From Terriglobia bacterium (GTDB lineage Bacteria > Acidobacteriota > Terriglobia > Terriglobales > Acidobacteriaceae), in assembly GCA_020073165.1 (NCBI GenBank), contig JAIQFP010000004.1, forward strand, positions 124,001-188,000: a DNA stretch of 64,000 bases. The letters are read 5' to 3'. A program made the translations under genes and the position numbers. Below the pieces are notes generated by a model. It was not told the DNA's origin. It did no database searches and worked only from the letters and a program-made list of their open reading frames with translations. This document shows, piece after piece, positions 3,983-26,834 of the stretch; position 1 is the stretch's first letter, and the number at the start of each line of letters is the position of its first letter.

Positions 3983-6663
3983 GCCTGGCGGCAGGAATCA
4001 AACTCGGCCCCTATGAAATCATCTCGCCGCTCGGCGCGGGCGGGATGGGGGAAGTGTATCGCGCCCGCGACACGCGGCTCGATCGCACGGTAGCGATCAA
4101 GATTCTTCCCTCGCATCTTTCTGACAATCCTGAGGCCCGGCAGCGCTTCGACCGCGAGGCGCGGGCGATTTCTTCGCTGAACCACCCCAACATCTGCACT
4201 CTCCATGACGTGGGGCACCAGGAGGGGACCGACTACCTGGTAATGGAGTTTCTAGAGGGGGAGACCCTGGCCGACCGGTTGGCGAAAGGGCCGTTGCCAC
4301 CGGAGCAGGTGCTGAAGTACGGGATCGAAATCTGTGAAGGACTGGAGAAAGCGCACCGCAGCGGAGTGGTACACCGGGACTTGAAGCCCGGCAACGTCAT
4401 GCTGACCAAGACCGGGGCCAAGCTGATGGATTTCGGACTGGCGAAGGCGGTGACGGCGGGGGCGCCACCGTCCTCGGGAATGACAGCAACGCTGATGTCG
4501 CCGGGAGGCAGTCATCCGCTGACGGCGCAGGGGACGGTAGTAGGGACGTTCCAGTACATGTCGCCGGAGCAGGTAGAAGGGAAAGAAGCGGATGTGCGGG
4601 GCGACATTTTTGCGCTGGGAGCGGTGCTGTACGAGATGGTGACAGGCAAACGGGCGTTCACGGGGAAGAGTCAGGCGAGCATTGTGGCAGCGATTCTGGC
4701 CTCGGAGCCACAGCCGATCTCGGCGGTGCAGCCGATGTCACCGCTCGCGCTGGACCGTGTGGTCAAGACCTGCCTGGCGAAAGATCCGGACGAACGGTTC
4801 CAGACCGTGCACGACCTGAAGCTGCAATTGAAGTGGATTGCGGAGGGCGGATCGCAAACCGGCGCGCCCGCACCGGTGGCGGTTCGCCGCCGGAACCGCG
4901 AGCGGCTGGCGTGGGCCGCAGTATTGGCGTTGATCGTGATCGCCGTGGTGCTGATGCGGATATGGGCGGGGCCGGAAGCTGCATCCAATGGTGCGATCCA
5001 GTCTTACCTGCCGGCTCCTGAGAACGCCACCTTCATTCTGTCGGATGACGACACCGCCGGGCCAGTGGTGATCTCGCCGAACGGAACCTACGTCGCGTTC
5101 GTGGCGATGGAGAAAGACGGGACAAAACGAGTCTGGGTGCGGGCGCTGAGCGAGTCGTCGGCCAAGGCCTTAACCGGCACTGAGGGGGGCACCTACCCGT
5201 TCTGGTCTCCGGACGAGAAGTGGGTGGGCTTCTTCGCCGACGGGAAGATGAAGAAAGCGCCGGTGAAGGGTGGGCCTGTCCTGGTGCTGGCGGATGCGCC
5301 GCGCGCCCGCGGTGGGAGCTGGGGCGAGAACGGAATGATTCTGTTCACGTCCACGACGCAATCGGGGGTGTCCGAAGTCGCGGCCACTGGGGGCACAGCG
5401 AAGGCGGTCACGCAACTGGAGCAAGGCGTGCACACCACGCACCGCTGGCCGGTCTGGCTGCCGGGAGACAAGAGGTTTTTGTACCTGGCGACGAACCACG
5501 AAAATCCCGCCGCCAGTGAGCGCAACGGCATCTACGTGGCTACGCCCGATGGACGGGAAAACCGTTTTCTCATGCCGGCTGATGCCAACGTGGTCGTCAC
5601 CCCGGATTACCTGCTTTATACGCAGAATGGGACGGTGATGGCGCAGCCGTTCGACCCCCGCCGGGCCGAACTGAAAGGCGACGCCGTCCCGGTGGCGGAA
5701 AGCGCCATTCGCAACGCTGGTACCTGGCGGGCTGCATTCGACGCTTCACAAAACGGAATCCTGGTTTACCAGGCTGGCGCCAGTTCGCGCGGTTCGCAGT
5801 TGGTGTGGATGACGCCGGATGGCAAGCCGCCCACCCCATTCGGTGAGGCAGCTTGGCTCGGCGAAATGAGGATGTCGCCTGATGGACAGAAGCTGGCCGT
5901 CATTGTCGGGGACCCAACACATACCCTGTGGATCTACGACATCGCGCGTGGGCTGCGCACGCGCTTTACCTTTGAGGGCAACACCGACGCCACCCCAGTA
6001 TGGTCGCCCGATGGGAAGCGCATCGCGTTTGCCCAGGCCCACGGAACCACGTTGGACATCTACGTGAAGGACGCGAGCGGTTCCGGGAAGCAGGAACTGC
6101 TTTTCTCGGACAATCATGACAAGCCGCTGGCGGACTGGTCGCCTGACGGCCAATACCTTTTGTATACCTCTAATCCCACCTCGCTAGCCTCTTCCATGTG
6201 GCTGCTGCCGCTTATCGGCGACCGCAAGCCGCGGCCATTCCTGCAGGGCGCGGGCCTGAGCTATATCCTCGCGGGTGCGTTCTCGCCAGACGGGAAGTGG
6301 GTGGCTTATGGATCGCGCGAGAGTGGCAGGTCCGAGGTCTACCTGACCAACTTCCCGCAGGCGACCGGGAAGTGGCAGGTTTCGACCGCCGGAGGAAGCC
6401 AACCGCACTGGGGGCACGGCGGCAAGACCCTGATGTACATGAGCATCGACCGCACCCTGATGGAAGCACCCATTGCCGTCAAGGGAGACGTGGTCGAGAT
6501 TGGCGCGGTTCACCCCTACGCTAGAACCAACGCGCTCACGCTACGGTGGGGTGGTGCCTACGACCTTGCGCGGGACGGGCGCGTGCTGGTCAATAGCACA
6601 TTGGGAGAAGACACACGGACCATCAATATGGTGGTGAACTGGACGGCGGGACTGAAGAGATGA
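3979..6663 (+). CDS. Membrane Ser/Thr protein kinase with C-terminal PD40/TolB-like propeller
   Basis: 894 residues. The kinase domain (about 10-275) has GAGGMGEVY, VAIKIL, HRDLKPGN, DFGLAK and a GTFQYMSPEQ activation segment. A hydrophobic helix at about 308-328 crosses the membrane. The rest is a six-bladed-type propeller built from PD40 repeats of the form FSPDGKWVAY. The arrangement predicts a cytoplasmic kinase with a periplasmic sensor. The start codon overlaps the previous stop (ATGA), and the next kinase starts the same way, so the three genes should be translationally coupled. Such kinase-propeller fusions are common in Acidobacteriota; ligand and targets are unknown. Confidence 0.93.
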   Translation: MSLAAGIKLGPYEIISPLGAGGMGEVYRARDTRLDRTVAIKILPSHLSDNPEARQRFDREARAISSLNHPNICTLHDVGHQEGTDYLVMEFLEGETLADRLAKGPLPPEQVLKYGIEICEGLEKAHRSGVVHRDLKPGNVMLTKTGAKLMDFGLAKAVTAGAPPSSGMTATLMSPGGSHPLTAQGTVVGTFQYMSPEQVEGKEADVRGDIFALGAVLYEMVTGKRAFTGKSQASIVAAILASEPQPISAVQPMSPLALDRVVKTCLAKDPDERFQTVHDLKLQLKWIAEGGSQTGAPAPVAVRRRNRERLAWAAVLALIVIAVVLMRIWAGPEAASNGAIQSYLPAPENATFILSDDDTAGPVVISPNGTYVAFVAMEKDGTKRVWVRALSESSAKALTGTEGGTYPFWSPDEKWVGFFADGKMKKAPVKGGPVLVLADAPRARGGSWGENGMILFTSTTQSGVSEVAATGGTAKAVTQLEQGVHTTHRWPVWLPGDKRFLYLATNHENPAASERNGIYVATPDGRENRFLMPADANVVVTPDYLLYTQNGTVMAQPFDPRRAELKGDAVPVAESAIRNAGTWRAAFDASQNGILVYQAGASSRGSQLVWMTPDGKPPTPFGEAAWLGEMRMSPDGQKLAVIVGDPTHTLWIYDIARGLRTRFTFEGNTDATPVWSPDGKRIAFAQAHGTTLDIYVKDASGSGKQELLFSDNHDKPLADWSPDGQYLLYTSNPTSLASSMWLLPLIGDRKPRPFLQGAGLSYILAGAFSPDGKWVAYGSRESGRSEVYLTNFPQATGKWQVSTAGGSQPHWGHGGKTLMYMSIDRTLMEAPIAVKGDVVEIGAVHPYARTNALTLRWGGAYDLARDGRVLVNSTLGEDTRTINMVVNWTAGLKR

Positions 6664-23821: not shown

Positions 23822-23852
23822 GGAATCTCCTGGGAAGTTGGTAAAAGAGAAC

Positions 23853-23881
23853 GGCCCGCGCACGGTTTAGGCGCGCGGGCC
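23853..23881 (-). terminator. Terminator-like hairpin at the end of the structured RNA
   Basis: Arms 23873-23881 and 23853-23861 make a 9-bp GC stem (GGCCCGCGC) with an 11-base loop. On the minus strand it is followed by TTCTCTTTT. It sits just upstream of the DUF4440 gene, so it may end the RNA or act as an attenuator. Confidence 0.6.
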
Positions 23882-24062
23882 GCCGGTGGTACTGTTTGGG
23901 ATTGACCAAGAGGTGGTCACTCTACGTGGCCTCTACGGCAACTCCGGGTCCCGGCGCGACCGACGCCGGGCGGATCGAATCCAAACTTACCGGTTAGTGT
24001 GCGGGCTGTAGCTTCCCTGCGCCGCAAGGGCGTCAGGAAAGCCCCGCTTAGAGCGACCGGCT

Positions 24063-24125
24063 CTAAGTCTCAGCCACCTCACCTGGTCTTTTGAAGCACC
24101 TACTACTACCATCTGAACTTGTCAT
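24063..24125 (-). CDS. 20-codon micro-ORF with an ideal ribosome-binding site
   Basis: The ORF starts ATG at 24125 and ends TAG at 24063, encoding a 20-residue peptide that begins MTSSDGSSRC and ends PGEVAET. AAAGGAGGTGG lies directly upstream (about 24130-24142), one of the strongest Shine-Dalgarno sequences in the window. The start codon falls in the loop of a small TCTGA/TCAGA hairpin. Its stop overlaps the first stem of the hairpin chain, as in leader-peptide attenuators. It has no run of one amino acid that would indicate a sensed tRNA. Not recognised; it may be a leader peptide or a small protein. Confidence 0.5.
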   Translation of the reverse strand: MTSSDGSSRCFKRPGEVAET

Positions 24126-24245
24126 CAGACCACCTCCTTTCCGGTGTAAAGCCACATTACCCGAAAACATACCCGCGGGCAAATAGCACGATAGTGGGTG
24201 CCGGAAATGTCAACAGCAGTCCGGCGTTATCGTCACGCGGCTCCA

Positions 24246-24353
24246 CTGGGCGTCATCCCGAAGCCCGGCGCAGTTCAGCCGGGCGAGGGATCTGGCGTGG
24301 GCGGCAGGCCTGCCACGGCGCGCAAGGTCCTTCGCTACGCTCAGGATGACGCC
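24246..24353. repeat. GTCATCC...GGATGAC dispersed repeat
   Basis: The stretch begins GTCATCCCGAAG and ends CCTTCGCTACGCTCAGGATGAC, so its ends are inverted copies of GTCATCC. A second partial copy, CCTTCGCTTCGCTCAGGATGAC, lies at about 12180-12201. It lies between the RNA element and the DUF711 gene. It is a repeat of unknown function and contains no gene. Confidence 0.65.
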
Positions 24354-24360
24354 ATCGTAG

Positions 24361-26208: not shown

Positions 26209-26598
26209 TCACCGGTTGCCCAGCGTCGCAATCTCTCCCAGCCCAAGCAGGCTGGCGTCGGCGGTGACCAGAGTTAAATCTAGAACTTGTGCGGTGGCGG
26301 CGAGAAAGCGGTCTGCCGGGTCGGGGTGCAAAAGAGGCAACTGCCGGGCCGCAAGGGCAATCTCGTGGGTGAGCGGAGCTTCATGAAACGGAGCCGTGGC
26401 GCGACCGACCCACTCCGAGAGGTTTCCGTGCAGCCGAATTCTGCCCTTGGCGTTCAGCGTTAGCGCTTCCCAGGTGCTGATCGGCGACAGCCAAAGTTCG
26501 TTCTCAGAGTTCTTCAGTTCGCGCTGAATTCTCTGTCCTAGCCTTCCCGGATCCTGAAGGCTCCATAGCCAGATGTGGGTGTCGAGCAGCAGCTTCAA
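26209..26598 (-). CDS. PIN-domain toxin (VapC-like)
   Basis: 129 residues with the PIN acidic residues: Asp in LLLDTHIWLW, Glu in STWEALTL, Asp in HPDPADRFLAATA, and Asp in LVTADASLL. The family consists of metal-dependent ribonucleases that cleave tRNA or rRNA. Its ATG overlaps the stop of the upstream Phd-type antitoxin by four bases, which fixes the start and shows an operon. The combination Phd antitoxin plus PIN toxin is a known hybrid type II module. Confidence 0.92.
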   Translation of the reverse strand: MKLLLDTHIWLWSLQDPGRLGQRIQRELKNSENELWLSPISTWEALTLNAKGRIRLHGNLSEWVGRATAPFHEAPLTHEIALAARQLPLLHPDPADRFLAATAQVLDLTLVTADASLLGLGEIATLGNR

Positions 26599-26834
26599 TC
26601 CCGCAGCGCCTCCCAGTCGCCTTCTTCGTTCGCCGGGGAGATGATGTCACCCAGGATTTCAATGCTTTCTTTCATCGATCCCATCCAGTCCGGCGGTGCG
26701 GTTGACGTCGGCGGGACGACTTCTGCGACTGGCTTGCCATGCCGGGTGATCCGCAGGGGCTTCCTGGTCTTCTGCACCTGATCCAGCAGATCCAGGCACT
26801 TGGCCTTGAATTCGGAGATGGCTACCTCTTTCAT
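26595..26834 (-). CDS. Phd/YefM-type antitoxin
   Basis: 79 residues. The N-terminus (EVAISEFKAKCLDLLDQVQKT) and RITRHGKPVAEVVP form the DNA-binding Phd/YefM fold; the C-terminal 30 residues, rich in Glu and Asp, should wrap the toxin. It is the first gene of the pair. An inverted repeat and a promoter end at its start codon, predicting autorepression and a leaderless mRNA. Confidence 0.92.
   Translation of the reverse strand: MKEVAISEFKAKCLDLLDQVQKTRKPLRITRHGKPVAEVVPPTSTAPPDWMGSMKESIEILGDIISPANEEGDWEALRD

Follow-up and report, generated by a model that had tools for sequence, protein, structure and literature searches.

A conserved structured RNA with an embedded micro-ORF in Acidobacteriota, a candidate for a translation-gated switch

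The RNA gene and its distribution

The window, i.e., the whole stretch of 64,000 nucleotides analyzed here, carries on its minus strand, from 24147 to 23843, what looks like one stand-alone RNA gene (ACACCGGAAAGGAGGTGGTCTGATG). In order, it shows a sigma70-like promoter, an extended Shine-Dalgarno (SD) sequence, an ORF of 20 codons, a pseudoknotted hairpin that includes its stop codon, a 3' box that is conserved, and a terminator; a variable structured part separates the stop-codon hairpin from the 3' box. The features are:

24154 to 24183, minus strand: sigma70-like promoter, -10 box TAATGT (24159-24154) and weak -35 box TTTGCC (24183-24178), spacing 18 nt
24147 to 23843, minus strand: whole RNA gene, about 305 nt, based on promoter geometry, conservation and fold (z -4.9), with the presumed 5' end at the A of ACAC and a presumed 3' end
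24128 to 24140, minus strand: extended SD sequence AAAGGAGGTGGTC, pairing with the 16S 3' tail at 13 positions, one of them G-U
24063 to 24125, minus strand: micro-ORF ATG...TAG, 20 codons, MTSSDGSSRCFKRPGEVAET, frame kept in 213 of 213 loci; 272 homologues
24075 to 24080, minus strand: GAGGTG (Glu-Val codons), present in 269 of 272 homologues as a second SD-like motif whose end lies 9 nt ahead of the stop codon
24048 to 24066, minus strand: stop-codon hairpin TTAGAGC/GCTCTAA, stem paired 7/7 in 122 of 164 distinct homologues
24058 to 24055 and 23918 to 23915, minus strand: pseudoknot, hairpin loop GGTC able to pair with GACC; the loop helix covaries in family members
23883 to 23920, minus strand: conserved 3' box GTGACCACCTCTTGGTCAATCCCAAACAGTACCACCGG, able to pair with the ORF end (24088-24068)
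23843 to 23882, minus strand: intrinsic terminator CGGCCCGCGCGC-CTAAACC-GTGCGCGGGCCG, then TTCTCTTTT, from sequence and fold

Folding of 24150-23840 yields -142.2 kcal/mol, whereas 100 dinucleotide shuffles average -116.3 and none of them is as good (z -4.9). The predicted fold contains a number of hairpins and, at 23882-23843, a long GC stem with a T-run behind it. Hairpins and a terminator-like stem had been placed by the initial annotation at 23850-24146, limits that nearly coincide with the transcript we infer. The same annotation had seen AAAGGAGGTGG directly before a 20-codon ORF, and indeed AAAGGAGGTGG lies at 24140-24130 and ATG...TAG at 24125-24063. A profile of 203 distinct upstream regions of homologues reveals TTG and TA--T-like boxes, 17 or 18 nt apart, at a constant distance from ACAC. 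With rows lacking ACAC removed beforehand, the best -35/-10 score (maximum 12) is at least 8 in 137 of these 203 regions, compared with 17 of 609 mononucleotide shuffles. Terminator-like GC stems with T-runs are present in most homologues inspected by eye. An Rfam scan of the window returned no family at gathering score, and the RNA itself is without a match.

Two further features were seen in the window. Between the RNA and the gene upstream of it, at 24200-24360, an inverted-repeat stretch (GTCATCCTGAGCG...GGGATGACGCC) has the appearance of a dispersed palindromic repeat and gave a chance microRNA match. At 26209-26834 on the minus strand, adjacent short ORFs presumably encode a PIN-domain toxin and a Phd/YefM-type antitoxin.

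Homologues were collected at 265 loci; three copies of the window were set aside, twelve loci were without the ORF by our filter, and 209 are distinct. The twelve comprise chance pattern matches (L118-L120), intact ORFs failing the serine rule (L128, L129, L165, L225, and L228), a locus cut by the contig end (L179), one with ATC for ATG (L051), one with an N (L069), and one lacking its 5' part (L097). All homologue counts reported here are correlated through kinship.

By DNA similarity, the RNA was identified in 11 of 41 genomes, own genome counted, and in 116 of 300 genomes of the family. Profile R1, a sequence-only model for which 41 homologues were used, detects the RNA in 259 of 282 family genomes that are at least 90% complete, in single copy except for three genomes with two; the 23 genomes without an R1 match include the one further member of the window's genus that was searched. 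The initial annotation had staked its structured RNA on conservation of stems or peptide in related genomes, and conservation was found by both searches. Among the matches listed, the family form occurs on contigs of Granulicella, Terriglobus, Edaphobacter, Bryocella, Terracidiphilus, Occallatibacter, and Korobacter. Its presence in more than nine tenths of the nearly complete family genomes indicates that the RNA gene is likely to matter to the cell.

Moving to higher taxonomic levels, 156 of 299 genomes matched in a class-level search, the weakest matches having an E-value of 8e-4. Among genomes drawn across the phylum, profile R2 matched 58 of 336, one of which was judged false, and profile R3 matched 71 of 317; the 246 genomes without an R3 match may reflect absence as well as divergence. 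Of the R3-positive genomes, 31 lie outside the class and are spread over ten families, given here under anonymous labels (f12, f21, f24, f42, f44, f50, f51, f57, f73, and f76), in each of which at least one locus was read. L351 (E 6.7e-4) was judged a false match and excluded from the 63 rows found with the models. None of the top-ranked titles of the open literature describes the acidobacterial RNA, which may still be in print.

Some genomes deserve a separate remark. G300 (contigs C88 and C43), G713, and G719 carry two RNA-model matches each, duplication and mixed assembly not being separated. In the pair G930/G931, L198 bears a Verrucomicrobia title and L226 a Rhodanobacteraceae title, and their RNA places nearly equal those of the f1 genomes G300 and G691. 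Because an acidobacterial RNA stands at such places, either the titles look wrong or the bins are mixed.

In the Granulicella mallensis locus L201, two matches to Acido-Lenti-1 (RF01687) lie inverted about 100 bases apart (5369-5413, minus; 5513-5557, plus), perhaps as the ends of a repeat or of a mobile element.

The micro-ORF, the stop hairpin and the 3' box

Measured between nucleotide landmarks, the frame from ATG to stop is kept in 213 of 213 distinct ATG-started loci, window included, which fall into eight length classes differing in steps of three. Three further rows have no ATG at this place; two of them show an in-frame GTG and one (L051) ATC. Since the stop end is set by the landmark pattern itself, what is tested is the variable middle, and because this middle differs only by multiples of three in all 213 loci, the comparison argues that the micro-ORF is translated. 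Frame and codon evidence together thus suggest the translated ORF that is expected of a dual-function regulatory sRNA. The 272 homologues have ORFs of 11 to 22 codons, starting with ATG (252) or GTG (20) and ending with TAG (236), TAA (27), or TGA (9). A stop specific for release factor 1, suggested by the exclusive use of TAG and TAA in the first 209 homologues, was rejected once TGA was found. The middles of the ORFs differ from one another in both length and letters, have a high A/T content relative to their genomes (GC 0.41 vs 0.60 downstream), and encode Ser/Cys/Asp-rich, Ala-poor peptides. Hence, the small protein considered in the initial annotation is supported as far as the frame goes but weakened by a freely varying middle and an end conserved as nucleotides; the peptide is apparently not a fixed product of the micro-ORF.

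In 258 of 272 homologues, between 13 and 18 bases of the SD sequence can pair with the 3' tail of 16S rRNA, against 11 in one homologue and 8 in 13, with one bulge of 1 nt allowed; only 17 of 5,440 random 22-mers reach 10 pairs. For the tail we used the sequence which we take to be that of these bacteria, since neither a family search nor a pattern search matched a 16S tail in these genomes. Free-energy folding leaves the SD sequence just half open (mean unpaired 0.47).

Towards its end, the ORF appears to be constrained at the level of nucleotides. Glu-Val is encoded as GAG-GUG in 269 of 272 homologues, the other three, all of family f90, having GAG-GGU; among loci found without a pattern containing GAGGTG, the motif is present in 166 of 169. 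Earlier in the same ORFs, Glu is mostly GAA (57, against 9 GAG) and Val mostly GTA (31, against 7 GTG and 2 GTT), a difference with Fisher p-values of 2e-55 and 6e-38 when kinship is ignored. Fixed GAG-GUG, as opposed to GAA and GUA earlier on, therefore indicates that it is the nucleotides of the ORF end which are being kept. Three codons separate Glu-Val from the stop in 271 of 272 homologues; 209 of these rows were selected for this spacing, whereas 62 of the 63 model-found rows, which were not, have it as well. GAGGUG is complementary to the 16S anti-SD (CACCUC), and with the stop codon in the A site, geometry would place it 6 nt away from the codon in the P site. A correlation of internal SD sites with ribosome pauses has been reported (PMC4117421). 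The Glu that follows Glu-Val is also GAG in 217 of 219 cases (GAA in 2), so that the constraint may stem in part from pairing and not from a second SD motif. The residues after Glu-Val do change, in several families jointly with their pairing partners.

The stem of the stop-codon hairpin is fully paired in the above 122 homologues, where 3.6 would be expected from shuffles, and in most rows in which TAG has become TAA the change is matched on the other arm. The helices that the ORF end and the hairpin loop can form with the 3' box were assessed in 26 family members, window excluded, which were chosen for a short middle part and three of which use a register one base off, counted as misses. In these members, 82.9% of the cells are paired, compared with 34-46% when the strands are slid, and 37 cells have changed on both sides, compared with 7-20. 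In one of five measures, the number of pairs with two-sided change (6) is close to expectation (4.9) and was attained by 151 of 500 shuffles. An unsupervised column scan returned predicted pairs at 5 of its 30 top column pairs; the remainder looks like kinship.

Beyond the family, support becomes patchy. Pairing of the ORF end with the 3' part does not in general outdo shuffles; it exceeds them at p <= 0.05 in only 18 of 102 tested loci (out of 272, family rows included), with a mean z of -0.8. Support is moderate in family f5, where 12 of 22 loci reach at least 8 pairs, compared with 17% of shuffles, and only 7 of these have them at a consistent place. No convincing ORF-end/3' box pairing was found in f24, f42, f90, f94, and f97, the rows of f42 and f24 being without a convincing box, and in L338 and L369 the best pairing of the ORF end lies away from the box. 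Co-changing helices were recognized by eye in f21, f51, f57, f44, f50, f76, f12, Nocardia, and Nonomuraea. By eye, families with an evident box place GGUG opposite CACC, and the next bases change together: ORF end and box read GGUGGCUG/CAGUCACC in Nocardia (L362), GGUGGUUG/CAACCACC in Nonomuraea (L370), GGUGCCUG/CAGG-C-CACC in L346 and L349, and GGUGGCGA/UCGCCACC in L359 and L361.

The box itself carries CACC, an anti-SD look-alike, in several families, and that of the window and its closest kin could alternatively pair with the SD sequence. Its last 12 nt have a mean unpaired value of 0.49 on folding. Some of its letters are common to distant families such as f1, f24, and f42. In f5, f94, and f97 it is missing by eye and the ORF is kept; our box pattern was absent from 4 of the 209 distinct homologues.

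A possible switch and its competitors

Taken together, comparison backs the structured RNA with a micro-ORF behind a strong SD sequence that had been proposed initially. We tentatively favor reading it as an RNA switch gated by translation, where the 3' box and a ribosome standing at the stop codon compete with each other. The micro-ORF would then be translated mainly to place a ribosome and not for the sake of a particular peptide. Several steps of such a mechanism find support in the comparison: conserved promoter, SD sequence, and terminator delimit a single unit; between 13 and 18 bases of the 16S tail can pair with the SD sequence; ATG and stop stay in one frame; GAGGUG is fixed 9 nt before the stop codon; and in the window's family the ORF end pairs with the 3' box, which immediately precedes the terminator, the stop codon being part of a pseudoknotted hairpin. 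The remaining steps are conjectural. As long as no ribosome is present, the 3' box would hold the ORF end closed. An initiating ribosome would reach the stop codon with GAGGUG at a start-like spacing (6 nt) from its P site, would be held there by its anti-SD, and would displace both the 3' box and the pseudoknot. The RNA would assume a ribosome-occupied or a free shape, through which it might signal or buffer how many working ribosomes are available. Its most likely effect, in our view, would be a read-out of translation capacity, and the RNA may do a basic, ribosome-tied job. We counted the varied neighbors of the 209 homologues and the ribosome-protected reads on Ms_IGR-5 homologues for a stand-alone switch; against it we counted the Ser/Cys/Asp-rich middle, which could matter for a peptide, the half-open SD sequence, the alternative pairing of the latter with the 3' box in the window and its closest kin, and the patchy pairing beyond the family. 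The codon bias beyond GAGGUG lowers our confidence in the switch slightly and raises that in a leader and in a functional peptide by still less.

The surroundings of the RNA were surveyed in the 209 distinct family homologues by tblastn with seven neighbor proteins, of which one is an antisense frame of thiG; the gene names are those we assume from sequence. Of the 209, 67 have thiG downstream on the same strand, 34 have an opposite-strand NUDIX gene as their nearest checked downstream gene, and 100 have none of the checked gene families downstream. Also found were ruvC near the RNA (45), ubiX upstream of it (35), a pstB-type ABC gene (23), and a ChaN-like gene (25). Downstream ORFs on the opposite strand are often mechanical antisense frames of thiG, as in one cluster where 66 of 66 loci overlap this gene. 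Thus, thiG often accompanies the RNA in one section of the family, but not generally. With rpmE often 3' of the RNA in f5 and tsaD in f97, other families have other neighbors. The initial annotation had suggested a leader peptide with an attenuator for the DUF4440 gene, which is indeed next in the window, and same-strand thiG as well as rpmE in several f5 loci would fit a leader of some downstream gene. Yet a downstream gene conserved in the same direction was not found in the survey, same-strand thiG reaching only the count given above; moreover, a terminator stands between RNA and gene in the loci read. As the neighbors differ between clades and the RNA ends in its own terminator, we regard such a leader as very improbable.

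Two synteny observations stand on their own. The association of thiG (thiazole synthase), often with ruvC nearby, in one part of the family is a clade-level synteny, functional or not. In several f5 loci, such as L321, L326, and L352, rpmE (ribosomal protein L31, start MKAGIHPAY) comes directly after the RNA, an arrangement that is not general.

Nearest among the three initial guesses comes a dual-function sRNA, whose 3' box (CAAUCCCAACAG..ACCGG) would pair with target mRNAs in trans, the ORF being a second function. A conserved, partly unpaired box directly before the terminator, a promoter of its own, and box letters shared by f1, f24, and f42 all speak in its favor; but f5, f94, and f97 keep the ORF without the box by eye, the box is partly tied up with the ORF, and the anatomy suggests that translation itself is the regulatory event, so we consider it rather unlikely. 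Still lower we rate an RNA that sequesters ribosomes, its two SD-like motifs and structured stop retaining 30S or 70S particles, be it for storage or as a brake. In favor of this idea are the 13-18 pairs that 258 of 272 homologues can form with the presumed 16S tail, as well as a second motif, GAGGUG, whose distance to the stop codon is like that to a start. Yet the RNA, coming from a gene in single copy, would have to be very abundant to count in numbers, and sequestration alone does not explain the 3' box and the pseudoknot. An invariant frame (213 of 213), a Ser/Cys/Asp-rich and Ala-poor middle, and a similar pattern in Nocardia (MDSSRTREVAVR) would be in line with a functional micro-peptide for which the RNA is just the mRNA. 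We hold this to be improbable in view of the small size (11-22 codons) and free substitution in the middle, of an end conserved as GAG-GUG nucleotides, and of residues after Glu-Val that change, in several families together with their pairing partners.

Comparison with known RNAs

At gathering thresholds, no Rfam family matched at the RNA in 38 scanned loci. Acido-1 (RF01686) was without a match at the RNA in the window and in these loci; a search of the own genome was empty, its control being silent too. With tmRNA, the RNA shares an ORF inside a structured RNA, a stop codon in a helix, and a pseudoknot, but it has its own SD sequence and start codon and lacks a tRNA-like part. As a candidate, tmRNA (RF00023) was rejected: there is no Rfam match at the RNA, and a normal tmRNA lies on contig C33 of the same genome (G000), whose contig C8 carries the window.

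Other sRNAs with an ORF are SgrS and RNAIII. Yfr6 of cyanobacteria is likewise a stand-alone small RNA with a short ORF; in contrast, its 5' UTR alone is said to be conserved, while the acidobacterial RNA preserves, within the family, ORF, stop hairpin, 3' box, and terminator. 'Downstream-peptide' RNAs correspond to the yfr6 5' UTR, and for the ORFs that follow them, indels in multiples of three entered the published case (PMC2864571). Bacterial sRNAs often carry coding ORFs (PMC5521070), and extended SD sequences are reported from S. aureus (PMC13009471).

The closest resemblance is to Ms_IGR-5 (RF02471), an actinobacterial sRNA with an ACAC-like start, an extended SD sequence, a short ORF ending in Glu-Val plus three codons and a stop (consensus readable as ..CEVAAR*), a 3' box of the type GAAUAC..GGCA-CCACC that resembles the f21/f51/f57 box, and a GC-rich terminator. 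It differs in being treated as an sRNA for which the excerpts consulted describe no ORF. Ms_IGR-5 is listed as transcribed in Streptomyces lividans (PMC8079986), its transcript was found in S. avermitilis (PMC8780764), and homologues show ribosome-protected reads in M. abscessus and M. smegmatis (PMC4974804). Against its gathering score of 45 bits, the window gives no match and L335 and L342 reach 22.2 and 21.2 bits over the full model length. At a relaxed Rfam threshold, these two of six loci are matched exactly on the RNA (E 0.27 and 0.49, or 0.003 and 0.005 when 301 bases are searched), and the other weak matches of the relaxed scans look like chance, apart from CC2171.

In the plasmid collection, the Ms_IGR-5 consensus retrieved three records (Nocardia, Tsukamurella, and a chance match inside a Deinococcus gene) and that of CC2171 retrieved 21 alphaproteobacterial records; eight records from the two queries were read, plus one found with the Nocardia stretch, while queries with two acidobacterial RNAs gave nothing of note. 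The anatomy was read directly in Nocardia (L362, start ACAC) and Nonomuraea (L370, start TACGC), among three actinobacterial records taken as putative members of RF02471. The sequence is ACACGAGGAAGGAGGTGGTTCG..MDSSRTREVAVR*..GAATACCAGGCAGTCACCCGG in Nocardia farcinica and TACGCGGAAAGGAGGTGGTCCG..MVSHSRASEVVVR*..GAATACGAGGCAACCACCGG in Nonomuraea, compared with GGAATACCAGCAGGCCACCG in the acidobacterial L346 and L349. Trained on Acidobacteria alone, R3 scores Nocardia with 39.7 bits (E 8e-12), Nonomuraea with 30.3 (8e-10), and Tsukamurella with 26.4 (1e-7), where the E-values refer to small fetched loci and the Nocardia and Nonomuraea loci had been fetched with the Ms_IGR-5 consensus or its match. 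The family-only R1 still matches Nocardia (2e-6) and Nonomuraea (2e-5). Tsukamurella L369 has no R1 match, and its 3' part is unlike. On this Tsukamurella plasmid, L369:1499-1560 encodes MVNFRTEEVAAA* ahead of the different 3' part and is perhaps a mobile or decayed relative. The SD sequence alone could converge because it is complementary to 16S rRNA; the ORF end and the 3' box together could hardly do so. Judged from these sequences, common descent of the acidobacterial RNA with the Ms_IGR-5 type is likely.

CC2171 (RF01867), an sRNA of Caulobacter and other alphaproteobacteria, is a further candidate relative. Five of six records read have an extended SD sequence (AAAGGAGGUGAUCCAGUG) leading into an ORF of 24-26 codons ([V/M]SHC...), and in the Rfam consensus, bases of the ORF pair with a segment right ahead of the terminator; CC2171 differs in having no Glu-Val end. 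CC2171 appears as a table row in one source (PMC5596092), and one covarying pair was added to it in Rfam (PMC11701678). Its gathering score of 75 bits is far above L335 (24.7 bits; E 0.16, or 0.0016 in 301 bases) and L342 (16.7 bits). As R3 matches four of the six alphaproteobacterial records, at 13.8-17 bits and in the SD sequence alone, and two not at all, common descent is no more than possible.

The RNA is thus recognizable in other families and classes of its phylum and in actinobacteria, and no Rfam family covers the acidobacterial form. It is conceivable, though we remain doubtful, that a widespread housekeeping RNA has been filed as separate sRNAs (Ms_IGR-5, perhaps CC2171, and the acidobacterial form), and that it would pair with nearly the whole 16S 3' tail, make a throw-away peptide, and act as a translation-gated switch, its ribosome parked by a second SD motif for which the 3' box competes. 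If the switch reading held, the RNA would sense translation by an ordinary ribosome, not a ligand, and RNAs so far filed apart would be joined into one question.
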